From Gemmatimonadota bacterium (lineage in GTDB: Bacteria; Gemmatimonadota; Gemmatimonadetes; Gemmatimonadales; Gemmatimonadaceae), in the NCBI GenBank assembly GCA_003134685.1, contig PLCA01000003.1, positions 431,174 through 495,173 on the forward strand: a stretch of DNA of 64,000 nt. Reading direction: 5' to 3'. Shown here in pieces: positions 26,130-55,213 of the stretch. The first letter of the stretch is position 1. Each line of letters opens with the position of its first letter. A model generated the notes under the pieces. That model made no database searches, was not told where the DNA came from, and saw only the letters and a program-made list of their open reading frames with translations. Position numbers and translations under genes: made by a program.

Positions 26130-26148
26130 TCATTTCTCCTCATTAACT

Positions 26149-26334: not shown

Positions 26335-26344
26335 TGCATTTATT

Positions 26345-28071: not shown

Positions 28072-29396
28072 GGCGCCGATTCCTTCGCGGCACCCGTCAT
28101 GAGCTTGCGCATCCCCGTCCGCTCGATCAGAGCATTGATGCGCGCTGCCGCCGAGTTGAGGGCATCCCTCGGCTCTGCCTGGCGTACGAGGGCGCGGTGC
28201 AATTCGATCTGCAAGATCTCGGAGAGCTCCGTGTAGATCGGAGTTACGGGCCGGGGCGTCGCGCTCTCGATGGCTCGCCGAGCGTTGTCGAGCGGGATCG
28301 CGATTGCGGTGCGGAGGCGCGCGTCGTTGTACAGCGCTGGGCGCGTCGGGTATTGTCCCACCGCCTGCGCGCGCTCGAGCATCTGCTCGGGTGCGGTGAG
28401 ATAGGCGATGAGCTTGTATGCGGCGTCGGGGTGATCCGCGTAGGCGTTGATCGCGAGCTGCGCTCCGCCAAGCGCCGCGGTGGAGTGTCCGCCGGGAGCA
28501 GCTCCCGACGCCGGCATCGGTGAGACGGCGAACTTTCCGGCGACTTTGGATTGCGCGGTGTCGCTCATCGCCGCGACAGGGTACGGCCAGTTGCGCATGA
28601 AGACGGCGTTTCCATTCTGGAATGCGAAGCGCGCTTCTTCCTCGTGCCAGGTGAGCACGTCGAGCGGAGCGACGTTCGTCTTGTACAGCTCGTCGCGCAT
28701 GAACTCGAGCGCGCGCACGGCCTCGGGGCGATTCACGACGACTTCGCCCTTGTCATCGATGATGCGGCCACCAAACGCTCCGAGATATTCCACGAAGCCG
28801 GTGATCAACCCTTCGTAGCGCGCGCCCTGCCAGACGATTCCATAGCGTGGCCCACCGCGACGCGACATCGCCGCCTGGGCGTCGGCTACCATTTCCTCGA
28901 GCGTCTTCGGCTCATTTGGAACGAGATCGGTGCGACGATAGAGGAGCCCGACGTCCGCGAACCACGGCAGCGCGTAAAGCTTCCCCGCCCACGTGTTGGC
29001 CGTGATCGTCGCTGGAAAAAACTCCGCTCTGGGCGGCCCGTACTTGTCGAGCGGCAGCACCCACCCCGCGGCCGCGAACTCCGGAGTCCAGACGACGTCG
29101 AGCTGGAGGATGGAAGGATTGCCCACCCGGGCATTGAGCCACTGGACGTAGAGTTGGTGCCGCTGCGACGCGTCGTCGGGCGTGCGCTGGAGCTCGACCC
29201 GGATTCCGGGATTGAGCTGCATGAACCGCTGTAGCTGCTTCGCGACAAGCGTCCCCTCGGCGCCCAGCGCGGAGCCTGAGAAGGTGAGAACAGTCTCGTT
29301 GGGGTTGGAAGCTCGCCCGCAGCCCGTGAGCAGCCACGCGGCGCAGAGGAATGCGTGCGCGGTCGATCGCACGAGGAAAACCCGGTCGAGCCTCAT
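28068..29396 (-). CDS. Sugar ABC transporter substrate-binding lipoprotein, locus 1
   Basis: 442 residues with a lipoprotein signal ending LLTGC. Family-1 extracellular binding-protein features: LTFSGSALGAEGTLVAKQLQRF, LQLDVVWTPEFAAAGWVLPLD, YALPWFADVGLLYRRTDL, and FMRNWPYPV in the hinge region. These match trehalose/maltose/disaccharide binders. It captures the sugar in the periplasm and hands it to the permeases encoded next. It starts 2 bases after the stop of the large toroid-like protein. Confidence 0.92.
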   Translation of the reverse strand: MRLDRVFLVRSTAHAFLCAAWLLTGCGRASNPNETVLTFSGSALGAEGTLVAKQLQRFMQLNPGIRVELQRTPDDASQRHQLYVQWLNARVGNPSILQLDVVWTPEFAAAGWVLPLDKYGPPRAEFFPATITANTWAGKLYALPWFADVGLLYRRTDLVPNEPKTLEEMVADAQAAMSRRGGPRYGIVWQGARYEGLITGFVEYLGAFGGRIIDDKGEVVVNRPEAVRALEFMRDELYKTNVAPLDVLTWHEEEARFAFQNGNAVFMRNWPYPVAAMSDTAQSKVAGKFAVSPMPASGAAPGGHSTAALGGAQLAINAYADHPDAAYKLIAYLTAPEQMLERAQAVGQYPTRPALYNDARLRTAIAIPLDNARRAIESATPRPVTPIYTELSEILQIELHRALVRQAEPRDALNSAAARINALIERTGMRKLMTGAAKESAP

Positions 29397-29397
29397 G

Positions 29398-31917: not shown

Positions 31918-32068
31918 TAATATCTTCTCCAACTCGCACGGGCGCGGGGAATCGGGGCTGGGATAATGTGGCACTCTAGGACCGCTGCGTCATTAGCGTT
32001 CTTGAGTTTGCTGCCTGGGCCTGGTTTGTCGAGCTTTAGCTGGTGTCCACTCGCACGCTAACCCTTAA

Positions 32069-37276: not shown

Positions 37277-38197
37277 ATGAGCAGTGAGATCACTCGGCGG
37301 ACGTTTCTCGTTGGAGCGGGTGCCGGAGCCGCGGGACTCATCGGGCTCAGGCCCGCACCCGCCGAAGCCACAGATCTGATCGCGGCCGAGCCTCGGCGCG
37401 AAGCTGAGCTCGATGCCGGGCGGTCTGCATCGGCGTTCAAGCTCTCGGTCACGCGGTGGCCTTTTCACCAATTCACTCTCGACCAGCTGTGTCAGATGTC
37501 TCGAGAGCTGGGACTCGATTCGGTCGAGCTCCTCGAGCCGGAGGAATGGGCGATTCCAAAGCGCTACGGACTCACGTGCGCAATGGGATACGCGACCGTC
37601 CCGAACCCGGACACACGACTCACGCAGGGCTTCAACCGGGTCGAGAATCACGCCTGGCTCATCCCGGCTTATCAACGCGCAATCCCGCTCGCGGCGGTGG
37701 CTGGAGTGCCGAACGTGATCTGCTTTTCCGGAAACCGTGCCGGTCAGAACGATGACGAGGGTCGGGCAGTCTGCGCGCGCGGGCTCGCTCCCCTTGTCCC
37801 AATCGCGGAGCGTCACGGCGTGACGCTGTGCATGGAGCTGCTCAACTCGAAAATCGATCATCCGGATTACCAGTGCGATCACACCGCGTGGGGCGTGGCG
37901 CTCGCAAAGCAGGTCAATTCGGACCGATTCAAGCTGCTTTACGACATCTACCATATGCAGATCATGGAAGGCGACGTGATCCGCACGATCCGCGACAACC
38001 ACCGATATATTGGGCATTACCATACAGGCGGGGTACCAGGACGGCACGAAATCGATTCCTCCCAGGAGCTGAACTATCCGGCAGTCATGCGAGCGATCGC
38101 CGAATCGGGATTCACGGGGTACGTGGCGCAGGAATTCGTCCCCACACGCGATCCGCGCACTTCACTCGCTGAAGCTGTCCGGCTCTGCCGTGTGTAG
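37277..38197 (+). CDS. Tat-exported TIM-barrel isomerase/epimerase-like protein (hydroxypyruvate isomerase type)
   Basis: 306 residues. A twin-arginine signal (TRRTFLVGAGAGAAGLIGL) ends near residue 35. The xylose-isomerase-like barrel follows, with MELLNSKIDHPDYQCDH, LLYDIYHMQIMEGDVI, IGHYHTGGVPGRHEID and GYVAQEFVPT, placing the metal-binding Glu, Asp and His as in hydroxypyruvate isomerases. Tat export means it folds with its metal before reaching the periplasm. A good GAGGAGG ribosome site is present. It is first in the run leading to the GH130 and ABC genes, 3 bases ahead of the next start, so an isomerase acting on the locus sugar is likely. Confidence 0.85.
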   Translation: MSSEITRRTFLVGAGAGAAGLIGLRPAPAEATDLIAAEPRREAELDAGRSASAFKLSVTRWPFHQFTLDQLCQMSRELGLDSVELLEPEEWAIPKRYGLTCAMGYATVPNPDTRLTQGFNRVENHAWLIPAYQRAIPLAAVAGVPNVICFSGNRAGQNDDEGRAVCARGLAPLVPIAERHGVTLCMELLNSKIDHPDYQCDHTAWGVALAKQVNSDRFKLLYDIYHMQIMEGDVIRTIRDNHRYIGHYHTGGVPGRHEIDSSQELNYPAVMRAIAESGFTGYVAQEFVPTRDPRTSLAEAVRLCRV

Positions 38198-38200
38198 CGC

Positions 38201-39265
38201 GTGATGGCCAACCGCGCGTCAGAAAACCCGATCATCACCCCGGCGATGGTCCTGCCTTCGAGGCCGGACTTCGAAGTGCTGGGTGTGTTCAATCCCGCTG
38301 TCACTCGACACGACGGACAGGTGGTGCTGCTGGTGCGCGTGGCGGAGGCTCCGCGGAAGATGTCGAGCGCGCTGGCGGCCGCGCCCATCTTCAATGCGGA
38401 CACTGGCCGCATCGAGATCAAGCGGTGGCAGGTCACCGAGAAAGGGCCGGATGTGAGTGATCCGCGGCTCGTAGTCGACAATGGGAAGACCTGGCTCACG
38501 TCGATGTCGCACCTGCGAGTCGCGCGCTCCACTGACGGCATCCATTTCGACGTCGAAGGACTACCGGCACTCGTTGCCGCAAACGCATACGAGTCGTTTG
38601 GGCTGGAAGACCCGCGCATCACGCACCTCGACGGCGTGTACTGGATCACCTACACCGCCGTGTCGCACTACGGAATCGGGACGGGTCTCGCCTCGACCCT
38701 CGATTTCAGAACGTTCGAGCGGCACGGGGTCATCTTCCCGCCTCCCAACCGCAACGTCACGATCTTTCCCGAGAAGATCGGGGGGCTGTACGCGGCGCTG
38801 CACAGACCTATGCCGGAAGGTCTGGGACAGCATTCGATCTGGACCGCAAGATCGTCGGATCTGAAATCGTGGGGGAGCCACCGCCTCGTCGCGACGCCGA
38901 GGGACGGCGGCTGGGATGACACGAAGGTGGGAGGCGGGGCGGTGCCGTTCCGGGTGCACTATGGCAAGGAAGATGGCTGGCTGGCGATCTATCACGGCGT
39001 CACTGGCTCGCCGCCCACCTACTCGCTCGGCGCCCTGCTTCTCAATCGGCACGATCCCTCTCGAGTGAGAGCGCGCTCGCGCGAGCCGATTCTCAAGCCC
39101 GAAGCGCCGTACGAGCGCGAAGGATTCTTCGGCAGCGTCGTGTTCACGTGCGGCGCCCTGACGGACGGCGATCTCGTGCGCGTCTACTACGGCGCCGCCG
39201 ATGGCGTCACGGCTGTGGCCGATCTGTCCCTACAGGAGATTCTATCGGGACTGGTGGAGGCGTGA
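38201..39265 (+). CDS. GH130-family beta-mannoside phosphorylase-like enzyme, first copy
   Basis: 354 residues, no signal peptide. A five-blade propeller of the GH130 type: VFNPAVTRHDGQVVLLVRVAE, ESFGLEDPRITHLDGVYWITYTA (catalytic region), NRNVTIFPEKIGGLYAALHRP, a WDDTKVGGGAVPF phosphate-pocket segment, and a final VYYGAADGVTAVA. GH130 enzymes phosphorolyse beta-1,4- or 1,2-mannosidic bonds to mannose-1-phosphate, saving ATP in the cytoplasm. The start is GTG directly before an ATG at 38204. The stop overlaps the GH5 start (gtga). Confidence 0.92.
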   Translation: MMANRASENPIITPAMVLPSRPDFEVLGVFNPAVTRHDGQVVLLVRVAEAPRKMSSALAAAPIFNADTGRIEIKRWQVTEKGPDVSDPRLVVDNGKTWLTSMSHLRVARSTDGIHFDVEGLPALVAANAYESFGLEDPRITHLDGVYWITYTAVSHYGIGTGLASTLDFRTFERHGVIFPPPNRNVTIFPEKIGGLYAALHRPMPEGLGQHSIWTARSSDLKSWGSHRLVATPRDGGWDDTKVGGGAVPFRVHYGKEDGWLAIYHGVTGSPPTYSLGALLLNRHDPSRVRARSREPILKPEAPYEREGFFGSVVFTCGALTDGDLVRVYYGAADGVTAVADLSLQEILSGLVEA

Positions 39266-40437
39266 GCTTCGAGCTCGGCATCAACTATTGGCCTCGCCGT
39301 AGCGCGATGTACATGTGGGAAGATTTCGACCTGGGCGAGGTGCGCGAGGACATGACGCACATGGCCGACCTCGGCTTCGATGTCGTGCGGGTGTTTGCAC
39401 GGACGAAGGACTTCCTCCCCGCTCCGTCGACTGTGGACGGCGGCATGATCGCGCGACTGGTTGAAGTAGTCCGCGCGGCCGCGGACACCGGGCTCAGGGT
39501 GGTGCCGACGCTCATCGTCCTCAACATGAGCGGCACGATCTGGTGGCCGGCCTGGATGCTCGACGCAAAGGGCCGGCCGGGAGATCTCTTCTCGGATCCG
39601 GTCATCCTTCGCTCACAGGCAGTGTTGGCGCAGACGTGCGCGCGCGCCCTCGCCGGCGACGCAACGATCCGCGGGTTCGACCTCGCGAACGAGATCGATG
39701 ACGCCCAGCTCCCCCGGTCGCGGGAAGCGGCCTGCGCATGGGGCTCGATGCTCGCGAACACGATCCGGGAAGAGGCGCCGGGCGCGCAAATCCGGATCGG
39801 AGCGCACCTGCCATCTTTGACTACCGATAACAACATGCGCGTGGACGATCTCGCCGACATCGTCGACGAGGATGTGATGCACGCTTATCCACTGTATTCG
39901 GACTTCGCCCGCTCATTCCTCGATCCGGAGCTGGTCCCGTTCTCGTGCGCATTGACGGCCGGACTCGCGGGTGCAGGGCGTCGGCCTCTGATGCAGGAAT
40001 TCGGGATGTGCACCGCCCCGAGCGGATCCCCCGGGCGCACAATCACCGACGATTTCCTGGGAGTCCCGAGGTCGCAATACCTGGCGTCGGAGAAGGAGCA
40101 GGCGGCGTATTACGAGGCCGTGCTGGCGAGATTGCTGGCGACCGGCGCTGCCGGTGCCTACGCGTGGTGTTACGCCGACTACGACCCTCGATTGTTCGAA
40201 CGACCCCCGCTCGCGACCGCCGTCCGGGAGCGGACGTTCGGGCTCGTGCGCGCGGACGGGAGCGAGAAGCCCGCTGCCAACGTGTTCCGGAGATTCCGGC
40301 AGCGTCGCGACGACGGCACGCTGGCGCAGGGGGAAGTCGCTCCAGTGCTCGACGTGAGCGCCGATGACTACTACGTGGAGCCGGCAAAGCACTTCGGACG
40401 CCTCTATTCAAAATGGGTGGCGCGGGGAACTTCATGA
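39262..40437 (+). CDS. GH5-like beta-mannanase/cellulase-type glycosidase, cytoplasmic
   Basis: 391 residues from the GTG at 39262, which overlaps the previous stop by 4 bases; an upstream frame to 39148 is only overlap with GH130. The barrel starts FELGINYWPRRSAMYMWEDF. The acid/base lies in FDLANEID (Glu144) and the nucleophile in LMQEFGM (Glu246), the spacing of clan-A enzymes. There is no signal peptide, so it works on imported oligosaccharides rather than polymer. Its ATGA overlap with the next gene keeps it in the coupled operon. Beta-mannosidase or mannanase activity is inferred from the two flanking GH130 genes. Confidence 0.85.
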   Translation: MSFELGINYWPRRSAMYMWEDFDLGEVREDMTHMADLGFDVVRVFARTKDFLPAPSTVDGGMIARLVEVVRAAADTGLRVVPTLIVLNMSGTIWWPAWMLDAKGRPGDLFSDPVILRSQAVLAQTCARALAGDATIRGFDLANEIDDAQLPRSREAACAWGSMLANTIREEAPGAQIRIGAHLPSLTTDNNMRVDDLADIVDEDVMHAYPLYSDFARSFLDPELVPFSCALTAGLAGAGRRPLMQEFGMCTAPSGSPGRTITDDFLGVPRSQYLASEKEQAAYYEAVLARLLATGAAGAYAWCYADYDPRLFERPPLATAVRERTFGLVRADGSEKPAANVFRRFRQRRDDGTLAQGEVAPVLDVSADDYYVEPAKHFGRLYSKWVARGTS

Positions 40438-41420
40438 TCGCGCCGCTCGAGCGTCTTGCGACCAACCCACTCATTCGCCCCTCGGACATTTCGTTCGTCA
40501 AGGCGAGCGGAACGTTCAATCCTGGAGTGACAGTCGACCGCGCGAGCGACAGGGTCCTGCTGCTCGTTCGGGTGTTCGAGGAAGCTTCACGGAGATCGTG
40601 TCTCGGGCTGGCGCTGTCGTCGGACGGCAAGCGAATCGACGAGATATGGGATCGCCCCGCGGTCGCGCGCGATGCGCCGTACGAGCATTGGGGCGTCGAG
40701 GACGCCCGCATCACCTATTTCGAGAGCGAAAAGCGCTATGCCATCACCTACACCGGGTACTCGCGCGACGGACCCCGGGTGTGCCTGATCACGACCGACA
40801 ACCTGCTTACTCCAACGAGCTACAAGCGTCACGGCCCGCGCATCGACGGTGAAAACAAGAACTGCGTGATCCTGCCGGAGAAGATAGACGGCAAGTACGT
40901 CATCCTCCATCGGCCAATGCCCCGCATCGTTTGCATCAAAGTGGCCAAGCTCGAAAAGAAGTGGCCGGCGAACGGTGTGCCCCTCGTTGGACCGCAGCCA
41001 AATACCTGGCGGAGCTCGCGCGTCGGCGCCGGCGCGCCGCCCGTGCGCACGGACATCGGCTGGCTGTTTCCATTTCACGGCGCAACATCAATCGAAGAGG
41101 GGAACGTCTACTCGATGGGCTGGTGCGTGCTCGATCTGAAGAACCCGGAAAAGGTTCTCTACGTGTCAGATGCGCCCGCGCTCACGCCGGAAGCGCCCTA
41201 CGAGATCCAGCGAGAGTCGATCCCGCAGGTAGACATGGCGAACTTCAGGACAGGCGTGCGCGTTGTCTTCCCACAGGGTCTGGTCGAGCGAGGGGAAGAT
41301 TTCCTGGTTTACTATGGAGCCGCTGACGTCTCGGTTGCGGCGGCGCGCGTCAACAAGCGCGAGCTGATATCGTCTCTGGGAGAAGCCATCAGATTGAAGC
41401 AGGGCGGAATCCCCCTGTGA
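40434..41420 (+). CDS. GH130-family beta-mannoside phosphorylase-like enzyme, second copy
   Basis: 328 residues from the ATG at 40434 in the ATGA overlap. The propeller motifs are TFNPGVTVDRASDRVLLLVRVFE, HWGVEDARITYFESEKRYAITYT, NKNCVILPEKIDGKYVILHRPMP, WRSSRVGAGAPPV and VYYGAADVSVAAA. It is only moderately similar to the first copy, so the two may split chain lengths or linkage types, as seen with paired GH130 enzymes. It is cytoplasmic. Its stop overlaps the GTG of the fused binding protein. Confidence 0.92.
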   Translation: MIAPLERLATNPLIRPSDISFVKASGTFNPGVTVDRASDRVLLLVRVFEEASRRSCLGLALSSDGKRIDEIWDRPAVARDAPYEHWGVEDARITYFESEKRYAITYTGYSRDGPRVCLITTDNLLTPTSYKRHGPRIDGENKNCVILPEKIDGKYVILHRPMPRIVCIKVAKLEKKWPANGVPLVGPQPNTWRSSRVGAGAPPVRTDIGWLFPFHGATSIEEGNVYSMGWCVLDLKNPEKVLYVSDAPALTPEAPYEIQRESIPQVDMANFRTGVRVVFPQGLVERGEDFLVYYGAADVSVAAARVNKRELISSLGEAIRLKQGGIPL

Positions 41421-44131
41421 CCCCTGCGTTTCACACTGGGCCAAATGGAGTTGCGGTCCCCGATCCTCGGCCGCGCTTTCTCCGAATCCTGATCGCGACG
41501 CTAGGCCTTTCTTGCTCTTTCCTCGTCGCGTCATGCGGCCGCAACTCGGAAAACCACGCTTCGCCTCGAGGGCCGGCGCCCACTGCTGTACGATTGGACC
41601 ATCTCCAGCACCTCGGCCGTAACGCGGTGGTCCGGGGTCGGCCGGTTCGGGTAGTTTCACTCTACGCGGAGGCGCCTGACTATCGTCCGACCGGCTCTCC
41701 AGCGCGCGACGGATTCGAGGGAATCGCCAGCCTCGACGATGCCGCGCGCGCGGCGGTTGTCTATCTCCGCGAGTACGAGGCAACGGGGGACACCGTCATC
41801 CGCGACGAGGCCGTTCGACTCCTGCGCTTCGTCACGGCGATGGAACAGGGTGACGGCGAGTTCGTCAATTTCATCGACTCCGCCGGTCGGCTGAATCGCG
41901 ACGCGCCTAGCAGTCGACAGAGCATGTCGTACTGGGCCGCGCGCAGCATCTGGGCACTCGGCGAAGCCGCGCGAGTGCTTGGGCCTCAGGACTCGACAGT
42001 GTTGAAGAGCATGCGTCCGGTGCTGAGTCGCGCGGTTTCGCGAATGGCGGAAGAGATCGACGCGGGCCGCCTCATCGGCGGATCGACCACGGCAACGTCG
42101 GAAGCGCTGCTCGGTCTGCTCGCGGCGCAGCGCGCCGATACCGCGAATGCACTCGTCCCGTTGGCGACGCGCACCGCCCGACTGCTTGCGGCGCACTCGG
42201 AGGGCGACAACAAGACCGCACCGTGGGGCGCGTATGTCGATCGAGCGAGTGCTCCCTGGCACGCGTGGGGAGCGCGATCTCCGGAGGCGCTCGCGATTGC
42301 CGGCAGCACCCTTGGTCATTCAGAGTTTACGGCTTCGGCCAGAAAGGAAGCGGACGGACTGTGGGGCAGATTCCTCCTCGCTGGAGGCATCCCTTCGGCG
42401 GTCGCCCCCAACGGGACAGCTACATGGTATCCCCAGATCGCGTACGGCATCGGCCCGATCGTCGAAGGGTACCTCGCATTGGCCGAGGTAACTGGACAGC
42501 GTCGCTATGCAGTTTTCGCAGGACTCGCCGCAGGCTGGTTCCTCGGCAACAATCCCGCGGGCGTGAGCATGTACGACGAGAAGACCGGTAGAACCTTCGA
42601 CGGGATCGACGGCCCATCGCCAGTGAAGGTGAATCGGAACTCGGGAGCTGAGTCGACCATCGAGGCGTTGCTGGCAATTCAGAAGGCTACGAGCAACCCG
42701 GATGCGGCGGAGTACCTGCATTACCGTCCGGTCGGCAATCAATCGCCTTTGCTTGCGAACGTTCCCGAACGGCGAGAATACACCGGGCCCGGCGGAAGTC
42801 GTCTCGTACTTCGCCGAGGGCCCGCCGGCGTTGAGATCGCGCGCGACGATCAGTCAGTCGGCAACAATGAAGTCGCTGCCAGGGACGCTGCCGCCGGGTC
42901 GGACAAGCCGTCGACACCAATCACGCTGACGTATTGGCCAGCTGCAAACCCGGTCGAGACGAGCGTCGCCAATCGCCTCGCGTCGCAGTGGAATCAGGAG
43001 CACCCCGATGTGCAGGTGCGAGTGCAGCCTTTGCCCGCCGGCCGCTCCTCCGAGGAGGTTCTACTGGCGGCGATCGTCGCCAAGGCGACGCCGGACGTCA
43101 GCTCGAATGTCTCGTCGGCGCTGCTGGCGCGGCTGGTTCGAGCGGGCGGTGTCGTGCGCCTCGACAATCGCGTCGCGACGTCGGCGCGGCTCAGGGAGCG
43201 CACAAACTCGGCGATGCTCGCATCCCTACGCCTGCCGGACGGCGGGATCTACGCGTTCCCCTGGAAGACGAATCCGATGATGTTGATGTACAACGTCGAC
43301 CTGTTCAAGGCGGCAGGGATCGGCCCGCCGCGCACCCAGAGCGAGCTGGTGCAGGCCTGGCACAAGCTCGCCCGCGACACCGACGGCGACGGCCGCCTCG
43401 ATCATTGGGCGATGTGGGCCACGCTCAAGACGACGTGGTACGAGCGCTTCTACGATTTCTATCCACTGTATCTTGCCAGCTCGGGCGGCAGGACGCTGGT
43501 GAACAACGGGAAGATCGTCTTCGACAACGAAGCAGCGGTCGCGGCGCTCGACGTGTTGCGCCGCGGCTTCGCCGAAGGGGTACTTCCCAGGTCGAATTTC
43601 GCGCTGGGACGCGATCCTTTCGCCGATGGCACCGTAGCGATGAAGATCATCGGACCCTGGTTCGTGAAGGAGCTAACCGACATCAAGATCCCCAGCTTGC
43701 ACTACGACGTCGCGCCTGTGCCGGGCGCGGATGGGACGGATCCGGCCAATCGTTATGCTTTCGCCGACTTGCGCAGCATCGCGATTTTCTCGACGACGCG
43801 TTATCCCGACGCCGCTGCGAGCTTTGTCGCATACCTCACGTCGCCTGCCGCCGACCGCATGCTGATCGAAGAAGCGAGCCAACTGCCGTACCGGCGGCGT
43901 CTCGCGACCGATCCGCGATTCACAGTTTCTCTCTCGAAATGGCCGACGCTCTCGACCTACGCCAACTATGTCGAGCGATCGCGCGATCTGGACCTCGATC
44001 CTGACGTGGTCGAGATTTTCGATCTTCTTTCGGAAGCCTACGAGGAGTCCGCGATCTACCAGACCACTTCGGTGAAGGATGCGTTGGCGAAGGCCGCCCG
44101 CGAGGCAAGGAACATTGTGAATGCGCGCTGA
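41417..44131 (+). CDS. Lipoprotein fusing a six-hairpin glycosidase-like toroid to an ABC sugar-binding protein
   Basis: 904 residues, GTG start in a GTGA overlap. The lipoprotein signal ends LVASC (Cys40). Residues about 60-450 are helical-hairpin repeats with AGWFLGNNPAGVSMYDEKTGRTFDG (about 372) and NRNSGAESTIEALLA (about 405), a pattern of (alpha/alpha)6 sugar-processing toroids. After a short linker, about 500-904 is a full family-1 solute-binding protein: TLTYWPAANPVETSVANRLASQW, YAFPWKTNPMMLMYNVDLFKAAGI and AMKIIGPWFVKEL. Ordinary binders are 400-440 residues. It is followed by two permeases and an ATPase, so the binding half must serve that importer. The toroid may trim or sense the ligand. 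Confidence 0.85.
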   Translation: MTPAFHTGPNGVAVPDPRPRFLRILIATLGLSCSFLVASCGRNSENHASPRGPAPTAVRLDHLQHLGRNAVVRGRPVRVVSLYAEAPDYRPTGSPARDGFEGIASLDDAARAAVVYLREYEATGDTVIRDEAVRLLRFVTAMEQGDGEFVNFIDSAGRLNRDAPSSRQSMSYWAARSIWALGEAARVLGPQDSTVLKSMRPVLSRAVSRMAEEIDAGRLIGGSTTATSEALLGLLAAQRADTANALVPLATRTARLLAAHSEGDNKTAPWGAYVDRASAPWHAWGARSPEALAIAGSTLGHSEFTASARKEADGLWGRFLLAGGIPSAVAPNGTATWYPQIAYGIGPIVEGYLALAEVTGQRRYAVFAGLAAGWFLGNNPAGVSMYDEKTGRTFDGIDGPSPVKVNRNSGAESTIEALLAIQKATSNPDAAEYLHYRPVGNQSPLLANVPERREYTGPGGSRLVLRRGPAGVEIARDDQSVGNNEVAARDAAAGSDKPSTPITLTYWPAANPVETSVANRLASQWNQEHPDVQVRVQPLPAGRSSEEVLLAAIVAKATPDVSSNVSSALLARLVRAGGVVRLDNRVATSARLRERTNSAMLASLRLPDGGIYAFPWKTNPMMLMYNVDLFKAAGIGPPRTQSELVQAWHKLARDTDGDGRLDHWAMWATLKTTWYERFYDFYPLYLASSGGRTLVNNGKIVFDNEAAVAALDVLRRGFAEGVLPRSNFALGRDPFADGTVAMKIIGPWFVKELTDIKIPSLHYDVAPVPGADGTDPANRYAFADLRSIAIFSTTRYPDAAASFVAYLTSPAADRMLIEEASQLPYRRRLATDPRFTVSLSKWPTLSTYANYVERSRDLDLDPDVVEIFDLLSEAYEESAIYQTTSVKDALAKAAREARNIVNAR

Positions 44132-44168
44132 ACGGAAACCGCGAAGGAACATGGTGAATGCGCGCTGA
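44107..44168 (+). repeat. Duplicated 25-base segment at the binding-protein/permease junction
   Basis: aaggaacattgtgaatgcgc plus five bases (44107-44131) recurs at 44144-44168 with one change, a 37-base period. The first copy encodes the end of the binding protein. The second, in another frame, supplies AAGGA and the ATG of the permease. Confidence 0.85.
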
Positions 44169-45021
44169 GCAGAAGACTGCTTCGCTGATGGCGGGGCCGT
44201 ACGCGGCGTTTCTGCTCGTATTCGCCGTGTACCCGATCGCGTTCGCGCTCGTCCTCGTCTTCCTACAGTGGGATCTCGTCACGGCGCCGACGTTTGCTGG
44301 TGCCGACAATATTCGGCTGCTCGTCCACGATGGGCGATTCTGGCGTGCCGTCGTCAACACGTTTGTGTTTCTCAGCATCCACGTGCCGCTCCAGATCGTC
44401 ACGGCGCTCGCGCTCGCGCTCACGCTCAATCGCCAGCTCGTTGGTCGTTCCTTCTGGCGGGCCGCCTTCTTTCTCCCGGTCGTAATCTCGGGCGCCGTCG
44501 TCGCGATTCTCTGGAGCCAGCTCTACGCCACCGATGTCGGGCTGATCAACCGGCTGCTGTTGAAGATCGGAGTGTCGCCGGTTCCCTGGCTCACCGATCC
44601 ACGAACAGCCATGCCCGCGATCGCGGTGATGGTTACCTGGAAGAACGTCGGCTTCTACGTGATCATCTACCTGGCCGGGCTCCAGTACATCCCTCGCAGC
44701 TGCCAGGAAGCGATCGAGATCGAAGGCGCGTCCGCGTGGCAGCGGTTCCGGTACCTGACTCTGCCGTCGCTGCTGCCGCAGACGATTCTCGTCGTCACGC
44801 TCTCTACCATAAACGGCTTCCAGCTCTTCATCGAGCCGTACGTGATGACTGGAGGGGGCCCGCTCAGGCGCACATACTCCGTGGTGCTCTACCTGTACAA
44901 CAACGCCTTCGCGTACCAGAAGATGGGCTATGCGGCGACGATCGGTGTCGCACTGGCGCTGATCATCGGCATCGTCGTCCTTGCTCAGCGTCGCCTGATT
45001 GGGAAGGCTGAAGCCCTATGA
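44158..45021 (+). CDS. Sugar ABC transporter permease, MalF-like, locus 2
   Basis: 287 residues, six membrane segments. The EAA loop reads CQEAIEIEGASAWQRFRYLTLPSLLP (about 180-205), followed by FIEPYVMTGGGPLRRTYSVVLYLY, typical of MalF/UgpA. The ATG at 44158 lies in the second copy of a duplicated segment that also gives AAGGA upstream. It ends in an ATGA overlap with the MalG-like gene. Together they form the channel for the oligosaccharide captured by the fused lipoprotein. Confidence 0.93.
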   Translation: MRAEQKTASLMAGPYAAFLLVFAVYPIAFALVLVFLQWDLVTAPTFAGADNIRLLVHDGRFWRAVVNTFVFLSIHVPLQIVTALALALTLNRQLVGRSFWRAAFFLPVVISGAVVAILWSQLYATDVGLINRLLLKIGVSPVPWLTDPRTAMPAIAVMVTWKNVGFYVIIYLAGLQYIPRSCQEAIEIEGASAWQRFRYLTLPSLLPQTILVVTLSTINGFQLFIEPYVMTGGGPLRRTYSVVLYLYNNAFAYQKMGYAATIGVALALIIGIVVLAQRRLIGKAEAL

Positions 45022-45833
45022 AGCAGCTCCGCAGAATCGTTCTATATGCAGGACTGAGCATCGCTGCAATTACCTTCATCTATCCGTTCCTCTGGATGGC
45101 GTCGAGCACGTTCAAGCCGCCCGTCGAAGTCGGCTCGCTGGCACTGATTCCGCATGACTTCACGCTCGACAACTACCGCACGATGTGGGCGCGGGCTCCC
45201 TTCGGACGCGCGCTCGTGAACAGCACCTTCGTGGCAACCACGATCACGCTTGCGGTGCTGGTGTTCGGTTCGATGACGGCGTACGCGATGGCGCGACTCA
45301 ACTTCCGCGGCCGGCCCGCCCTCAACGCAGCGACGATCGCGGTGCTGATGGTACCCGGCCAGCTGACGCTGATTCCGCTGTACACATTGATCGTGCAGCT
45401 CGGATGGGTCGACACCTACGCTGCTCTCATCGTTCCGTACCTGTTCAACGCCACGGCGATCCTGATGTTGCGGCAATTCTTCCTGCAGATCCCGCAGTCG
45501 CTCATCGATTCCGCCCGCATGGACGGAATGAGCGAGCCGCGCATTCTCTTCACCATTTTCTGGCCGTTATCCAAGCCCGTGCTGTCGATCGTCGCGATAT
45601 TCACCTTCATGGGTGCGTGGAACGAAGTGCTCTGGCCGCTGCTCGTGGTGCGCGAGCAAAACCTGATGACGCTTCCGCAGCTGCTGACCGTTTTCGCGCT
45701 CGGCGGCGGCGCGGGTTCGGTCGGCGTCTCGCTTGCCTCGGCGATGGTACTGGTAGTGCCGGTGGTTGTCGCTTACGCATTCCTCCAGCGGAACTTTATC
45801 GAGAGCATGGCCGGCTCCGGGATCAAGGGCTAA
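45018..45833 (+). CDS. Sugar ABC transporter permease, MalG-like, locus 2
   Basis: 271 residues, six membrane segments. The EAA-like loop is DSARMDGMSEPRILFTIFWPLSKPVL (about 168-193), with Asp-Ser-Ala in place of the commoner Glu-Ala-Ala, and WNEVLWPLLV follows. It overlaps the MalF-like gene by 4 bases and ends 2 bases before the ATPase start. Confidence 0.92.
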   Translation: MKQLRRIVLYAGLSIAAITFIYPFLWMASSTFKPPVEVGSLALIPHDFTLDNYRTMWARAPFGRALVNSTFVATTITLAVLVFGSMTAYAMARLNFRGRPALNAATIAVLMVPGQLTLIPLYTLIVQLGWVDTYAALIVPYLFNATAILMLRQFFLQIPQSLIDSARMDGMSEPRILFTIFWPLSKPVLSIVAIFTFMGAWNEVLWPLLVVREQNLMTLPQLLTVFALGGGAGSVGVSLASAMVLVVPVVVAYAFLQRNFIESMAGSGIKG

Positions 45834-45835
45834 CG

Positions 45836-46948
45836 ATGCCATCAGTCACGTTCGAGCACGTCACCAAGCGCTTCGGCGACGCAACAGTGATCGAGGATTT
45901 CGATTTACAAGTAGCGGACGGCGAGCTGCTCGTGCTGGTCGGCGGATCTGGATCCGGGAAGTCGACGATCCTGCGGATGCTCGCTGGCCTGGAGACCGTG
46001 ACCTCGGGCAGGATCCGGATCGACGACCGCGATGTGACCGACCTCGCTCCGCGTGACCGCGACGTCGCGATGGTGTTCCAGGACTACGGGCTGTACCCTC
46101 ACATGACCGTGCGCGACAACCTTTCGCTCGGACTTCGCCTCAGAAAGATTCCGCGCCACGAGATCGAACGCCGCGTTACGTGGGCGGCCAGCATGCTCGG
46201 CCTCGAGCCCCTGCTCGATCGCAAGCCGAAGGCGTTGTCCGGAGGTCAGCGGCAGAGGGTCGCGATGGGACGCGCCATGGTGCGCGAGCCCAAGGTGTTT
46301 CTCTTCGACGAGCCCCTCTCCAATCTGGACGCCGGTCTCCGGGCTCAAATGCGCATCGAGATCGGTAGCCTTCAGGATCGGCTCAAGACCACCACCGTCT
46401 ACGTCACGCATGACCAGGTCGAGGCGATGACTCTGGGCGACCGGATCGTCGTGCTCGCGGACGGACGCATCCAGCAGATCGGCCGGCCGATCGAGTTGTA
46501 CCGAACTCCGGTCAACCGCTTCGTTGCGGGATTCATTGGCACGCCGGCAATGAACTTTATCGAGGGAACACTCGTCGCGGACGGCGGTCGAATGTTTTTC
46601 AGCGCTGAAGCCGCGCGTTTGAAGATGAGAGCTGGCACCGCTGAATCGAGCGAGCCGATAACGCTTGGGATCCGGCCGGAGGATCTGCGGATGGATTTCA
46701 TTCCTCAGCAGCCGACACACGGATCCGCTGACTTCGACACGTTAACCGGGCGCGTCGTGCTGGTCGAGCGGCTCGGTGGAACCAGCCACGTTCATTTTCA
46801 GGTTGGCCCGCACCGATTGATGGCGTCCGTTGCGAGCGATTCACTGCCGGAGGTCGGACACGACATCACGGCGCATGTTCCAGCCGCTCGGGTACATCTG
46901 TTCGGCGGCGATGGCCGTGCCATCGGACGAACAGCGGAGATCGTCTGA
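45836..46948 (+). CDS. Carbohydrate ABC transporter ATPase (MalK/UgpC type), locus 2
   Basis: 370 residues from the ATG at 45836; the same frame is open further upstream but only as a shadow of the permease. Walker A is GGSGSGKS at 36-43 (Gly where Pro is usual), Q-loop VFQDYGLYPHMTV, signature LSGGQ at about 134-138, Walker B FLFDEP, and switch YVTHDQ. The C-terminal TOBE domain covers about 235-370. It is a clear paralogue of the locus 1 ATPase. Its stop TGA lies inside a CTGA that probably starts the next gene. Confidence 0.93.
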   Translation: MPSVTFEHVTKRFGDATVIEDFDLQVADGELLVLVGGSGSGKSTILRMLAGLETVTSGRIRIDDRDVTDLAPRDRDVAMVFQDYGLYPHMTVRDNLSLGLRLRKIPRHEIERRVTWAASMLGLEPLLDRKPKALSGGQRQRVAMGRAMVREPKVFLFDEPLSNLDAGLRAQMRIEIGSLQDRLKTTTVYVTHDQVEAMTLGDRIVVLADGRIQQIGRPIELYRTPVNRFVAGFIGTPAMNFIEGTLVADGGRMFFSAEAARLKMRAGTAESSEPITLGIRPEDLRMDFIPQQPTHGSADFDTLTGRVVLVERLGGTSHVHFQVGPHRLMASVASDSLPEVGHDITAHVPAARVHLFGGDGRAIGRTAEIV

Positions 46949-49617
46949 CAACTTTCCCACCTGCGCTCGGCCCTCTGCGGGCTAAAGCTCTCGTCGCGAT
47001 TGCGCTCGCGCTCATCGCTTGCGCCAGGATCTCTCAGAGGACACCGCAGGTTATTCCCGTCACATCCGGTCGGACAGGCCGGAGCGTCTCGGCCGATAGC
47101 GCTCCGGTCAGGGGGCAAGGTGCAGATCTATTGACGATTGAAAGCGTGAAGGAAGTTGGTCAAATCGAAGTCGGCAGCCCATATGTGGGCATCGAGATTC
47201 ACAAGAGCTTTCCGTTGTTGAATCGGATAAGCTTTTACTACCCGGTAGCAAACAGTATCGATATCAGTGACGATTACTGGAAGCGTGAGACTTTCAGAAT
47301 CATGTCCATCGGACTAAGGGTGGGTGGTTCCCCAAAACGCTTTCTCGAGCATCAGGTTTATAAAGTCTCTCAGACACCATACTCTGTTTCCTTCCATGGA
47401 AACGATTCTGGCAGTCACGTCAGAATCACTTATGAGTTTTGCAGGAACGAGCCAGCTATGGTGGTTACCTACGAGATAACCAATACATCTGCGACCACGA
47501 AAGACTATGAAGTGTATACCCGACTGGAAACGACACTTCGAACAAGCCACACTTACAAACTTATTGATAGCGCATCTACCGACTTTCAGACCAGCGGATC
47601 AATAATCAGGACGAACTATCCTTTTGTGGAAACCGGGAATGCGCAAATATTTGTCATGAATTCAGGGCTGCAGCCGTCGAGTTTTACAACGAGGCAGCCA
47701 AAGAATACTGGATTCTCAAGCCTCGACGATTGGTGGTTGAACACCGACAGCCCTCTTCCGGCAACACTAATTCCGCGAGAGAAACCAGACAAACCCCTCG
47801 CTGCGTTCACCTACAACAAACAGTTACCTCCTGATTCATCAATCACGATTATCCAGATTGTTGGATCAGCATTGATTTCAGAAGCGGCGGCGAAGACGGC
47901 TTTCCTGCTCACGCACTACCAGCGTGAAGTCAAAGCGTACAAGGATTACATCATCAAGGAGGCTTTGGCCCGGCCTGACATCGTTACCGGCGATAACGAT
48001 CTGGATTTGACTTCGCGGTGGTCAAGGGCAGTCCTGGCAACGAACGCCCATTACCTGCATGGCCGAATAGTTCCTATGCCTGCCCAAGCGGAATACAATT
48101 TCTACTTTACTCACGATGCATTGCTCACCGATTTGGCGGCGGTGAATTTCGATCTGGCAAGAGTCAGGAACGACTTGGAGTATATAGTCAGTTTAGCCGA
48201 CACAGATCGAACCATACCCCACGCCTACTATTGGCAGGATACAAAGTACACGACTGAATATGCGGGCCCGGAGAACTGGAATCACTTCTGGTTCACGCTT
48301 GTGGCTGCACGTTATCTGCGCCACTCAGGGGACCGTGAGTTTCTGGCGCGCCTTTATCCCTATATCGAGAAGAGCATTCAGACTGCGCTGAAGAATAAAG
48401 GCGCAGACGATCTGATGTGGTCCTCGCGGCCGGACTGGTGGGACATTGGTCGTAATGTGGGACCACGGGCGTACATGACGATTCTGGCCATTCGTGCATT
48501 GAGGGAGTTCGACTTTATATCGAGCTCATTGAACCGTGATGGGTCGCAATTGGAGGCCTATGAGAATCTCGCCACTCGAATGAATAAGCAGCTGGTCGAC
48601 CGGCTCTGGGATGACCAGCTGAACTACCTGATAAGCTATTACGAGGATGGAAAAGAGGATCGCCACATATATATGGGATCTCTGTTGGCCTCACATTTTG
48701 GCTTGCTCGATGATGCCAGGAATCGAAAGCTGCTAACGACTGCCAAGGCAAAGCTATTGGATGAACGACTGGGCCTGTACACGCTGTATCCAATGGACCT
48801 ACATCTGCTTATCGATTACATGAGATTTGCCGGTAATGAGGCCGGCCAACCTTATCACTATGCCAACGGCGGGATCTGGCCTCACGGAAATGCCTGGTAC
48901 GCTCTCGCGTTAATCAACAATGGATTGAACAAAGATGCTTTTGAATTCATGAAGCGGACTATGACCCTGAACGGGATAACAAATAGTCCCAATGGCCAGC
49001 CTGCTTTGTATGAGTACAGAATAAGTGACAAAAGCGATCCGGCCGTTTATGGAAAGATTGACAAACCTCAATTCCTGTGGGCGGGCGGCTGGTACCTCTA
49101 CACTCTGTATAATCTGTTCGGCCTGAGGGAAAATGAATGGAATATCTCGTTCAGCCCTTTTATCCCCAAAGGTGTGGATTCCGTACAGTTGACCGTGATC
49201 CTCAAGGGCGTCCCTGTAAGTGTCGATATCAGGGGAGAGGGGAGCACGCTATCCTCCATCTCATTCGATGGAAGGGACATCCCATCAGCTGTTGTGCCGG
49301 AGGATATCAAAGACTTGAGAAAGATCGGCGTAACATTAGGGGATGCCGTAACGCCGTATCTAAGTTCGGCTAATGCTTTAGTAATTTCTCCAGTCTATGA
49401 CAGAGAAACGAAGAAACTTGAATTTGATCTCGAGTCTTTTGCAGGCCATTTAATCGAGGTGGGAGTTGTATCCCCGACGGCAAAGCAAAGTATTGCGATA
49501 AATGGTCGTTATATCAGCAGTGGGATTACGGAATCAAGAACCAACGGGAGCTATAAGATTCATCTGCAGCACGTTTCCAGATCGAAGAGAAATCATTATT
49601 CAGTAACGGTGAAATAG
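46945..49617 (+). CDS. Low-GC (alpha/alpha)6 glycosidase-like lipoprotein, probable CTG start
   Basis: The frame has no ATG or GTG upstream, and its only TTG (47131) leaves 828 residues without a signal. Reading back, the frame encodes LRAKALVAIALALIAC, a good lipoprotein signal with lipobox LIAC. The only start compatible with it is CTG at 46945, overlapping the ATPase stop as CTGA, like the ATGA/GTGA overlaps earlier in the operon. This gives 890 residues. The body has an N-terminal beta-sandwich, then a toroid with WSSRPDWWDIGRN, HIYMGSLLASHFGLLDD, YHYANGGIWPHGNAWYALAL and FLWAGGWYLYTLYNLFGL. It resembles amylo-glucosidase and phosphorylase-like toroids. Body GC is visibly lower than that of its neighbours. 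Confidence 0.75.
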   Translation: MTTFPPALGPLRAKALVAIALALIACARISQRTPQVIPVTSGRTGRSVSADSAPVRGQGADLLTIESVKEVGQIEVGSPYVGIEIHKSFPLLNRISFYYPVANSIDISDDYWKRETFRIMSIGLRVGGSPKRFLEHQVYKVSQTPYSVSFHGNDSGSHVRITYEFCRNEPAMVVTYEITNTSATTKDYEVYTRLETTLRTSHTYKLIDSASTDFQTSGSIIRTNYPFVETGNAQIFVMNSGLQPSSFTTRQPKNTGFSSLDDWWLNTDSPLPATLIPREKPDKPLAAFTYNKQLPPDSSITIIQIVGSALISEAAAKTAFLLTHYQREVKAYKDYIIKEALARPDIVTGDNDLDLTSRWSRAVLATNAHYLHGRIVPMPAQAEYNFYFTHDALLTDLAAVNFDLARVRNDLEYIVSLADTDRTIPHAYYWQDTKYTTEYAGPENWNHFWFTLVAARYLRHSGDREFLARLYPYIEKSIQTALKNKGADDLMWSSRPDWWDIGRNVGPRAYMTILAIRALREFDFISSSLNRDGSQLEAYENLATRMNKQLVDRLWDDQLNYLISYYEDGKEDRHIYMGSLLASHFGLLDDARNRKLLTTAKAKLLDERLGLYTLYPMDLHLLIDYMRFAGNEAGQPYHYANGGIWPHGNAWYALALINNGLNKDAFEFMKRTMTLNGITNSPNGQPALYEYRISDKSDPAVYGKIDKPQFLWAGGWYLYTLYNLFGLRENEWNISFSPFIPKGVDSVQLTVILKGVPVSVDIRGEGSTLSSISFDGRDIPSAVVPEDIKDLRKIGVTLGDAVTPYLSSANALVISPVYDRETKKLEFDLESFAGHLIEVGVVSPTAKQSIAINGRYISSGITESRTNGSYKIHLQHVSRSKRNHYSVTVK

Positions 49618-52519: not shown

Positions 52520-55213
52520 ATGTTTGATACTCTGAGCCTTTCGCATATCCTGATGGTTTTGGTGATCGTTCTGCTTTTCTTCGGTGCTAAACGGATCCCC
52601 GAGATCGCAGGCTCCATGGGCAAGGGCATCCGCGAGGAGCAGCGCAGAGCCGAAGCGGCTCCTTTGATGCGACCGCTGAACATCACAGATTCATCACATT
52701 GGGCAGCTTACGGTAATCTTGCGACGTTGAGAAAAGCCGCGGCATTTCTCGCGCTCACGATTGTGGCGCACCAGCCGCTCGCGGCGCAGGCAAACGCGAA
52801 ATCGGCTGCCCTCTCACGGGGTGGACTCCTGGCGCAGCAGGCCGCCTACACCTTCCTGGGCAATTCACGGGGATACGACCGCGTTCCCGGCGGCATCTTG
52901 ATACGCGCCGATCACGGCGCGGTGCTAATCGAAGCAATAGCGGGAATTGGGGCGCGAATTCGCGTGCGCTTTTCGGATGGAACTCCCTCGTTCCCGACGC
53001 CGCACTCTCTGGCGACTGGCGACACCGCGCCGAGACTGGGTAATGCTGTCGTTCATGAGGCGGGTGATACCGTCCTCGTTTACGCTGAGGGATTGGTCGT
53101 GCGCGTAGCGCGGCATCCAGTCCGCCTGAGTGTCACCGACAGTGTAGGACATGAGCTTCTCGCCGAGTCTTTCGGCGCCGGGGTGTGGCAGGGGAGGCTC
53201 GCTCACGTTCTCCGCGATCTGCCAGCCACTCGTTACTACGGACTCGGCGAGCAGCCGATGCCATTGCTTCGCAACGGCTCCGTGTTTCCGCTCTGGAACA
53301 CCGATCGCTTTGGCTACCGTCCCGGCGACATGCCGATCTACTCCTCGATTCCGTTCTATCTCGGAGTTCGTGATGGCATTGCGCACGGCATTCTGTACGA
53401 CAATCCGTTCCGGGCGGAATTCGATTTTTCCGCCAGAATGCGATCCGCGCTCTCCTACATGTCCGAAGGCGGGATCGATGGCGGAGAGCTTCGATATTAC
53501 GTGATTCCCGGGCCGGGACTCGACAGCACGCTCGCGCGCTACACGCGACTCACCGGCAGGACGCAGCTGCCGCCTCGCTGGTCGTTGGGGTATCACCAGA
53601 GCCGGTACAGCTATTTCCCCGACACGACCGTCGAGAATCTCGCGCGCGAATTCCGCCGGCGTGACATTCCCGCTGATGTGATTCATCTCGACATCCACTA
53701 CATGAATGGATATCGGAATTTTACTTTCGACCCGGAGCGTTTCCCCCAGCCGAAGCGCTTGCTCGACACGCTCGCGGCGGAAGGATTCAAGGTGGTGACG
53801 ATCGTCGATCCTGGTCTCAAGGTCGACAGCAGTTGGTCGGTCTATCGTGACGGCCTAACGCGAGGCGCGTACATCACGCTTCCTGATGGATCTCCGTACG
53901 TAGGTGTCGTCTGGCCAGGCCGAAGCGTCTTTCCCGATTTCTCCCGAGCCTCGGTGCGCGACTGGTGGGGCGCACAACACCAGGCGCTCGTCGACGTCGG
54001 CGTCCGCGGCGTGTGGGACGACATGAACGAGCCGGCATCCTTTGGTGGTCAGACGATTCCCGATATCGTCCAGTTCGAGGGCGACGGGCACCCGGGGACT
54101 CATCTCGAGTATCACAATCAGTATGGGACGCTGATGGCGCGTGCGACCTTCGACGGATTCCATCGGCTCCGGCCGGAACGCCGCCCCTTCGTCATCACGC
54201 GTGCCGCGTACGCCGGCGTGCAACGGTACGCCACCGTTTGGACTGGCGACAACAACTCGACCTGGGAACACCTCCGCGTGTCGATCCCCATGATCCTCGG
54301 GCTTGGGCTCTCGGGCATTCCGTTCACAGGGAGCGATATCGGCGGCTTTAATGGGGCACCGGGCGCGGAGCTGTACGCGCGATGGCTGCAATCGGCAGCG
54401 CTCATTCCGTTCATGCGCACTCACGCAATGATCGGAACCCCGAGGCGCGAGCCGTGGAGCTATGGCCCCCAGTACGAGCGCGCGAATCGGGCGACGATCC
54501 GGCTGCGCTATCAAATGATGCCCGCGCTCTACACCGCGTATTTCCAGCACACGCGGCAGGGAAGTCCGGTCGTGAGACCGGTCTTCTGGAACACACTCAC
54601 CGATTCAGCCGCGCTCGGCACCGACGACGAATTCATACTCGGCGATCACCTGCTGGTGGCGCCAGTAGTTGATTCGGGCGCAGTGAGTCGAAGCGTCTAC
54701 CTGCCGGCGGGTCGCTGGTATCGAATGGGAAGCGGAGAGGCCTACGACGGCGGTCGTTCAGTTACGGTTCAGGCACCAGGTGTCCTCAACGACGGAGGCG
54801 ACACGACCGGTCTCCGCGGATTACCGGTGTTCGCGCGCGCGGGCGCAGTGATACCGTCATCGGCTGTCGTTTCGTACGAGGGTCAGCGTCGACTCGATAC
54901 CCTGAGCATCGATATCTATCCGGGCACCGCCACGAGCGAGCTGTACGAGGATGCGGGCGAGGGTTACGCGTATCAGCGCGGAGAGTATCGGCGGACGACG
55001 TTTACGACGTCTGGCGCTCCGCTCTTGTCGATGACTTTGGCGCAGACGGGATCTTACGCGGGCGCCGGCTCATTCAAGCTCACGATTCACGATGTCTCAC
55101 GCCCTCAGCGAACTTTGGTCGACGGTCGCTCGGTGCAAACCGTGTACGATGGCCCGCGACGCGAGATCTATCTCGTGATCCCCTCACGCGCGCGACGCCT
55201 GCAAATCGAGTAA
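52520..55213 (+). CDS. TatA-like N-terminus fused in frame to a GH31 alpha-glucosidase
   Basis: 897 residues. Residues 1-45 are a TatA/TatE protein: MFDTLSLSHILMVLVIVLLF, then FGAKRIPEIAGSMGKGIRE. No stop follows. From about 70 a second signal-like segment (LRKAAAFLALTIVAHQPLAAQ) leads into a complete GH31 enzyme. Its nucleophile is Asp501 in WDDMNEP and its acid/base is Asp577 in WTGDNNSTW, with a C-terminal beta-sandwich (YEDAGEGYAYQRGEY). GH31 enzymes hydrolyse terminal alpha-glucosides. AAGG lies upstream of the first ATG. GH31 could instead start at ATG 52667 or TTG 52727, both without good ribosome sites. Confidence 0.87.
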   Translation: MFDTLSLSHILMVLVIVLLFFGAKRIPEIAGSMGKGIREEQRRAEAAPLMRPLNITDSSHWAAYGNLATLRKAAAFLALTIVAHQPLAAQANAKSAALSRGGLLAQQAAYTFLGNSRGYDRVPGGILIRADHGAVLIEAIAGIGARIRVRFSDGTPSFPTPHSLATGDTAPRLGNAVVHEAGDTVLVYAEGLVVRVARHPVRLSVTDSVGHELLAESFGAGVWQGRLAHVLRDLPATRYYGLGEQPMPLLRNGSVFPLWNTDRFGYRPGDMPIYSSIPFYLGVRDGIAHGILYDNPFRAEFDFSARMRSALSYMSEGGIDGGELRYYVIPGPGLDSTLARYTRLTGRTQLPPRWSLGYHQSRYSYFPDTTVENLAREFRRRDIPADVIHLDIHYMNGYRNFTFDPERFPQPKRLLDTLAAEGFKVVTIVDPGLKVDSSWSVYRDGLTRGAYITLPDGSPYVGVVWPGRSVFPDFSRASVRDWWGAQHQALVDVGVRGVWDDMNEPASFGGQTIPDIVQFEGDGHPGTHLEYHNQYGTLMARATFDGFHRLRPERRPFVITRAAYAGVQRYATVWTGDNNSTWEHLRVSIPMILGLGLSGIPFTGSDIGGFNGAPGAELYARWLQSAALIPFMRTHAMIGTPRREPWSYGPQYERANRATIRLRYQMMPALYTAYFQHTRQGSPVVRPVFWNTLTDSAALGTDDEFILGDHLLVAPVVDSGAVSRSVYLPAGRWYRMGSGEAYDGGRSVTVQAPGVLNDGGDTTGLRGLPVFARAGAVIPSSAVVSYEGQRRLDTLSIDIYPGTATSELYEDAGEGYAYQRGEYRRTTFTTSGAPLLSMTLAQTGSYAGAGSFKLTIHDVSRPQRTLVDGRSVQTVYDGPRREIYLVIPSRARRLQIE

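Follow-up and report, generated by a model that had tools for sequence, protein, structure and literature searches.

Why should the binding lipoprotein of a sugar importer carry a second, glycosidase-like domain, and what would that domain do at the membrane? This question is raised by a gene in a stretch of 64,000 nucleotides from a Gemmatimonadota bacterium (assembly GCA_003134685.1, contig PLCA01000003.1, positions 431,174 to 495,173; hereafter the window), which encodes one protein consisting of an N-terminal toroid and a C-terminal solute-binding domain of the ATP-binding cassette (ABC) type. Judged from the sequences compared here, the fusion is real and joins the two domains in one frame, and it is a clade-wide architecture in Gemmatimonadota, more than a one-off. 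The explanation that we prefer, with about an even chance of being right, is that the protein works as a scavenger tethered to the membrane: its toroid would cut beta-1,2-linked mannan, and its solute-binding domain would catch the pieces for the adjacent importer.

The fusion gene is a single stop-free frame of 904 residues, and the whole-genome copy contains the same unbroken frame. A missed stop codon or an assembly join of two genes, the weak point foreseen in an earlier reading of the DNA letters alone (the original prediction), is contradicted by relatives from other records. We found 18 fusion loci, namely 17 gemmatimonad-type loci from a search of a genome collection, two of them in metagenome-assembled genomes titled Acidobacteria, and the locus of the isolate Gemmatirosa kalamazoonensis (L043). 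Of these, 12 hold the fused frame at full length, among them G. kalamazoonensis, where it lies on a complete replicon, and the other 6 are cut by contig ends. Furthermore, the sequence ahead of the solute-binding domain does not look like another signal peptide, and an artefact is hardly credible. The same genome search also returned two Paenibacillus matches to the solute-binding part alone, at 21% identity.

Domain matches and models agree with the original prediction that one protein, likely a lipoprotein, carries a toroid and a complete solute-binding domain with boundaries near residues 480 and 500. The domain searches that it had proposed gave SBP_bac_1 and SBP_bac_8 in the C-terminal half, and PDB entry 7tem with no Pfam family in the N-terminal half. 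Residues 513-812 match Pfam SBP_bac_1 (PF01547) at E 1.3e-31 (111.2 bits, against a cut-off of 26), the score of the binding domain against SBP_bac_8 (PF13416) is 91.3 bits (cut-off 27), and the nearest solved structure to this half is Lmo0859 (4gqo, 2.4e-36), the next solute-binding protein following at 3.9e-16. The curated Pfam cut-off for SBP_bac_1 is thus passed, and permeases and an ATPase are encoded alongside; binding of a sugar and its delivery to the permeases is the predicted role of this domain. That the gene precedes those for two permeases and an ATPase had also been noticed before. The domain matches of these neighbours bear it out, and permeases lie 3' of the fusion gene in all 13 relatives with downstream sequence. 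The protein is likely tethered to the membrane, as judged from its lipobox-like motif, and several relatives of the fusion protein also have such motifs.

The toroid belongs to a distinct family that has no Pfam model. Residues 57-434 match YPO2471 (PDB 7tem) at E 4.2e-39 in one search and 2.2e-38 in another, and this is the only close solved relative, with likeness in both sequence and fold over the whole domain; no Pfam family matches the window toroid up to E 1. YPO2471 was released in 2022 as a 'putative exported protein'; its solved chain of 427 residues has no solute-binding part, and a literature search for YPO2471 or 7tem found no paper. When residues 40-490 were modelled with AlphaFold2 from an alignment of 60 sequences, some rows of which are database fragments of fusions, an alternating-helix (alpha/alpha)6 toroid with a three-strand tail (452-477) was obtained at a mean predicted local distance difference test (pLDDT) score of 91.5. 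Nine residues (D107, D108, R111, N151, R176, Q340, D387, D395 and E412) are invariant in all 53 toroids compared, which comprise 15 fused, 12 stand-alone, 16 Sphingomonas-like, 5 from Bacillota and 5 fused to a GT4 glycosyltransferase, and these nine sit at pocket-side loops and helix starts of the model. The 48 toroids without GT4 all have W281, H282 and W284, which are missing from the 5 that are fused to GT4. In addition, 39 of the 45 positions conserved at 98% in the 60-row alignment lie in loops or helix starts of one face (p 3e-7; the face, defined from the helices of the model, takes up 195 of 372 positions). Since acids that never vary face the pocket in the model, the toroid may be catalytic. 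The first inner helix is the site of D107 and D108 and the last that of E412, an arrangement that recalls the postulated Asp140 and Glu546, 8.4 A apart, of the GH9 enzyme VC0615 (PMC6096475).

Beyond 7tem, the fold neighbours are 2-epimerases (Z up to 29.1), GH76 alpha-mannanases (26.4) and GH9 enzymes (25.8), all at 7-17% identity; the window toroid has no match to the Pfam models of any of these (PF07221, PF03663 and PF00759) at E up to 1, and the relative L113 reaches 23.2 bits with the GH9 model, against a cut-off of 27.7. In GH76, the catalytic aspartates are an adjacent pair. The toroid proteins of Bacillota carry additional C-terminal parts, one of them with a carbohydrate-binding CBM9 module. 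Taken together, the invariant residues, the conserved face, the CBM9 module and the fold neighbours favor an enzyme that acts on carbohydrates; when the gene neighbours are considered as well, a hydrolase is favored. The original prediction had left cutting and binding as alternatives. Because the nine pocket-side residues never vary, cutting is favored over binding; catalysis, the substrate and hand-over of the product are predictions.

The fusion was found across the clade. All of the 120 matches listed of 1530 in a protein search with residues 45-490, whose length filter hides short proteins, contain solute-binding domains. In a survey of 395 Gemmatimonadota genomes, strong toroid matches (E 3.7e-64 or better) were present in 25, of which 15 are fusions to a solute-binding domain, 9 are GT4 fusions and 1 is a toroid of the GT4 type for which no GT4 part was found. 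Therefore, the possibility that relatives always keep the two domains as two genes does not hold: the exported-type toroids among these strong matches are joined to a solute-binding domain in 15 of 15 cases, and it is in other phyla that they are split. At E up to 1e-3, 133 of the 395 genomes gave a match, but 108 of these are weak and partial only (E 9.4e-10 or weaker) and were excluded from the family; the one inspected, L041, looks like what we take to be a thioredoxin-domain protein with a distant toroid. Identity of 14 full-length relatives to the window protein is 60-97% in the toroid, 30-92% in residues 437-500 and 67-99% in the solute-binding domain. The 15 fused toroids group together in a tree of all 53 (support 97/85), with a single origin in 99% of 200 bootstrap trees, and their sister is the stand-alone protein P0160. 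P0160 and the proteins of the P0221 group end just past the beta tail, and up to about residue 478 the fused toroid therefore resembles an entire stand-alone protein. No paper on a toroid fused to a solute-binding protein was found in a literature search. A phage origin was rejected, as there was no phage match.

Outside Gemmatimonadota, the same components occur as separate genes. On the Sphingomonas plasmid pSZ.B2R2_3, a gene for a toroid of 422 residues overlaps the gene for a solute-binding protein by 4 bases and is followed by two permeases and a GH130 enzyme; the two proteins are 33% and 26% identical to the respective halves of the window protein. Of 249 genomes of Bacillota, the phylum of Paenibacillus, 12 matched at 1e-30. 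In all five strong loci (E <1e-95; genomes G843, G864, G841, G771 and G918), toroid, solute-binding protein, permeases and GH130 are separate genes of one cluster, and in three loci (L113, L115 and L116) the toroid and solute-binding protein genes are directly adjacent on one strand; the 7 weaker matches are GT4-type by best match. An automatic label of locus L104 as a fusion to a solute-binding protein was rejected, because the frames at the same place (L116) are two genes. The Sphingomonas and Bacillota clusters are thus like the window in combining the four components in one cluster and unlike it in keeping toroid and solute-binding protein as two genes. Because these genes adjoin there, it is likely, on the evidence of gene order, that the fusion joined two proteins that were already neighbours.

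A toroid of the same family is also found as the C-terminal part of a GT4 glycosyltransferase. In one further phylum, in which 38 of 297 genomes matched, 25 loci were classified as 24 GT4 fusions and 1 fusion to a solute-binding protein; the latter (L046) is the same place as L018 and lies on a short contig. A GH130 gene is present in the locus of all 24 of these GT4 fusions and of all 9 in Gemmatimonadota (L034-L039, L077-L100). The GT4-toroid proteins share the toroid family and the nine invariant residues with the window protein, to whose toroid theirs are about 23-29% identical. They differ from it in having GT4 in place of the solute-binding domain, in being likely cytoplasmic and in lacking W281, H282 and W284, and they are possibly a mannan-building counterpart. 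On a plasmid of Sphingomonas paeninsulae (L044), a GT4 gene is followed by several short annotated frames, one of which matches the end of a toroid, in a neighbourhood with GH130 and mannose-metabolism genes; this GT4-toroid gene looks broken up.

The substrate is suggested by the GH130 neighbours, which point to beta-1,2-mannan. A GH130 gene is present in all 16 fusion loci, of the 18, that have sequence upstream of the toroid; it lies upstream in 15 (in one with a GH5 gene between) and downstream in L019. Both GH130 enzymes of the window rank beta-1,2 enzymes far higher than beta-1,4 enzymes: the best match of the first is Lin0857 (1.1e-94 vs 1.8e-43), and that of the second is 7fip (3.7e-42 vs 6.3e-20). 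Lin0857 and 7FIP (Teth514_1789) are both listed as beta-1,2-mannobiose phosphorylases in a review table (PMC8950772). The Sphingomonas GH130 likewise matches Lin0857 (8.7e-103), and all five GH130s of the strong Bacillota loci pass the NCBIfam equivalog model for beta-1,2-mannobiose phosphorylase, NF052550 (473.5 to 535.7 bits; cut-off 450). For Thermoanaerobacter, it has been proposed that 1,2-beta-oligomannan is taken up by an ABC importer of the cluster and then broken down by phosphorolysis, with two GH130s as the enzymes (PMC4264767). That cluster (Teth514_1785-1796) is like the window in its ABC importer, two GH130 phosphorylases and a GH5 enzyme, and unlike it in that the solute-binding protein is listed as a separate protein, Teth514_1796.

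Sequence evidence establishes the reading frame, both domains, the order of the genes, the conservation of the fusion and its single clade, and the separate genes in other phyla. In the scavenger that we propose, the lipid anchor, the toroid, a flexible linker of about 22 residues and the solute-binding domain would follow one another along the protein. The toroid would cut mannan chains within reach of the receptor, probably by an inverting mechanism in which Asp107 or Asp108 is the base and Glu412 is the acid, and the solute-binding domain would catch the pieces and deliver them to the permeases encoded directly downstream. Because the linker appears flexible, hand-over across its 22 residues would be brought about by a raised local product concentration, with no closed tunnel involved. 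Once imported, the oligosaccharides would be converted to mannose 1-phosphate through phosphorolysis by the two GH130 enzymes, in line with the proposal for Thermoanaerobacter (PMC4264767).

Several observations weigh against this explanation. In the full-length model of the fusion protein, the mean pLDDT is 58.1 and the placement of the domains is not derivable; its solute-binding half is poor, probably because the alignment contained close fusions only. The nearest folds beyond 7tem are 2-epimerases and not hydrolases, and neither 7tem nor any other member of the toroid family has a recorded activity. When the toroid profile was compared with that of GH9, in a run without the short toroid rows, the pairwise probability was 71.9 and E412 was not aligned with the GH9 acid. 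With regard to the substrate, the two GH130 enzymes of the window score best with NF050092 and NF052550 yet stay below both cut-offs (550 and 450 bits, respectively), the first with 412.1 and 204.8 bits and the second with 165.8 and 164.7 bits, and the Sphingomonas GH130, with 431.6 bits against 550, is also under the cut-off. Furthermore, the one GH130 tested beside a GT4-fused toroid matches beta-1,4-mannooligosaccharide enzymes first (1.4e-52 vs 3.2e-45), and the GH5 enzyme of the window is nearest to an endo-beta-mannanase (7bob, 1.2e-31) and to GH5_18 enzymes.

Alternatively, the toroid might not cut at all and might instead bind long sugar chains, as a second binding site by which mannan is collected close to the receptor. 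Such a role would suit a toroid that is joined to a binding domain and that has kept the aromatic residues W281 and W284 in all 48 toroids without GT4. However, the nine invariant residues, among them four aspartates and one glutamate, are retained even in the GT4-fused toroids, which have no solute-binding domain, and this looks like chemistry; in addition, one relative supplies its own CBM9 for binding. We therefore regard a purely binding toroid as unlikely, while placing it ahead of the remaining alternatives. It could also be that the toroid is another kind of carbohydrate enzyme, such as an epimerase, isomerase, lyase or transglycosylase, which converts the sugar before it is bound, and the 2-epimerase fold neighbours come to mind here. 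The 2-epimerases of PF07221 have two catalytic histidines. The toroids compared have a single conserved pocket-side histidine (H282), which is absent in the GT4-fused ones, and the toroid has no match to PF07221 or to any other Pfam family at E up to 1, which makes this explanation rather improbable.

The same machine for cutting and catching might act on a different substrate, namely beta-1,4-mannosides or a mixed mannose glycan. That beta-1,4-mannosides are a possible alternative is indicated by the GH5 neighbour and by the GH130 on the GT4 side, which leans toward beta-1,4, and the position of the GH130s of the window under the beta-1,2 cut-offs agrees with it. In contrast, beta-1,4 enzymes come far behind beta-1,2 enzymes among the matches of both these GH130s, and a GH5 enzyme also belongs to the beta-1,2 cluster of Thermoanaerobacter (PMC4264767); we consider a different substrate improbable and put it last among these three.

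If the toroid of the proposed scavenger does cut, it would supply the outer depolymerising step for the use of beta-1,2-mannan, the inner phosphorylases of which are already known, and it would give a function to the solved but unannotated 7tem and its Pfam-less family. A literature search of titles and abstract openings found no description of a beta-1,2-mannanase, which is not proof that there is none in print. More speculatively, and in our estimation doubtful, the toroid may found a new glycoside hydrolase family that is the missing extracellular beta-1,2-mannanase, welded in Gemmatimonadota to the importer receptor as a one-protein machine that keeps the product from competitors, with the same catalytic toroid separately fused to GT4, its task there being to shorten the chain under synthesis or set it free. 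If the toroid does cut, an enzyme and the receptor of an ABC importer would be covalently linked in one protein, and a comparison of the fused and split forms would allow a direct test of the benefit of hand-over at the membrane.

Table 1. Parts of the fusion gene and genes of its neighbourhood, in positions of the window
Feature	Position	Strand	Evidence
Xylose-isomerase-like TIM barrel, Tat-like signal, head of the cluster	37277..38197	+	AP_endonuc_2 1.1e-27
GH130 phosphorylase-like enzyme 1	38201..39265	+	best PDB match Lin0857 1.1e-94; under NCBIfam cut-off
GH5-like enzyme, likely start near 39262	39148..40437	+	PDB 7bob endo-beta-mannanase 1.2e-31; weak Pfam Cellulase
GH130 phosphorylase-like enzyme 2, 3' end within start of fusion gene	40413..41420	+	7fip 3.7e-42; under NCBIfam cut-off
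Fusion gene, toroid and ABC solute-binding domain, 904 residues	41417..44131	+	frame, domain matches, relatives
Signal sequence ending in lipobox-like VAS-C (C40), predicted lipid anchor	41417..41536	+	sequence
Toroid domain, residues 57-436	41585..42724	+	PDB 7tem match, AlphaFold2, Foldseek/VIA to 7tem, residue invariance
Toroid residues D107; D108; E412	41735-41737; 41738-41740; 42650-42652	+	
Toroid beta tail, residues 437-478	42725..42850	+	strands 452-456, 462-468, 471-477 in AlphaFold2 model
Linker, residues 479-500, predicted disordered	42851..42916	+	pLDDT <50 in full-length model
ABC solute-binding domain, residues 501-904	42917..44131	+	SBP_bac_1 1.3e-31; PDB 4gqo 2.4e-36
ABC permease 1	44158..45021	+	BPD_transp_1
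ABC permease 2	45018..45833	+	BPD_transp_1
ABC ATPase, MalK-like, 370 residues from likely start at 45836	45836..46948	+	ABC_tran, OB_MalK, TOBE_2
Glycosidase-like toroid enzyme, no evident export signal, 3' of importer	47131..49617	+	MGH1-like_GH 1.2e-10, Glyco_hydro_94 1.6e-9

Among the neighbouring genes (Table 1), the TIM-barrel gene at the head of the cluster keeps its place in L005, L010 and L017. The ATPase is 91% identical to that of L005, as against 41-47% to the ATPases that follow permease 2 in eight other fusion loci (L006, L007, L008, L010, L011, L013, L015 and L020), and because of this difference the ATPase of the importer in the window may have been replaced locally. The tie of the glycosidase-like enzyme 3' of the importer to the fusion system is uncertain. 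Its GC content is 0.485, compared with about 0.62-0.65 in its neighbours, and its DNA is 98.2% identical to L010, with which the remaining operon genes share 75-89%; because of the low GC content and this high identity, it looks recently exchanged between related genomes.

Elsewhere in the window, another sugar ABC importer, likewise complete with an ATPase, two permeases and a solute-binding protein, is encoded on the reverse strand at 25014-31974. For the neighbouring protein of 858 residues (29398-31974), neither Pfam nor NCBIfam gave a family, and its best PDB match (E 0.44) is not convincing; a link between this protein and the toroid was rejected, as there is no similarity. On the forward strand, glucosamine-6-phosphate isomerase-like and PIG-L deacetylase-like domains are combined in one protein (3699-5630), and a frame of 905 residues (16452-19169) contains a type II/IV secretion ATPase together with MshEN, response-regulator receiver and GAF domains. 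Three FG-GAP/ASPIC-UnbV repeat proteins are encoded close together at 55259-57202 (forward strand), 58173-61643 and 62089-63963 (both reverse strand), and a GH31 gene (52520-55213) adjoins this group.

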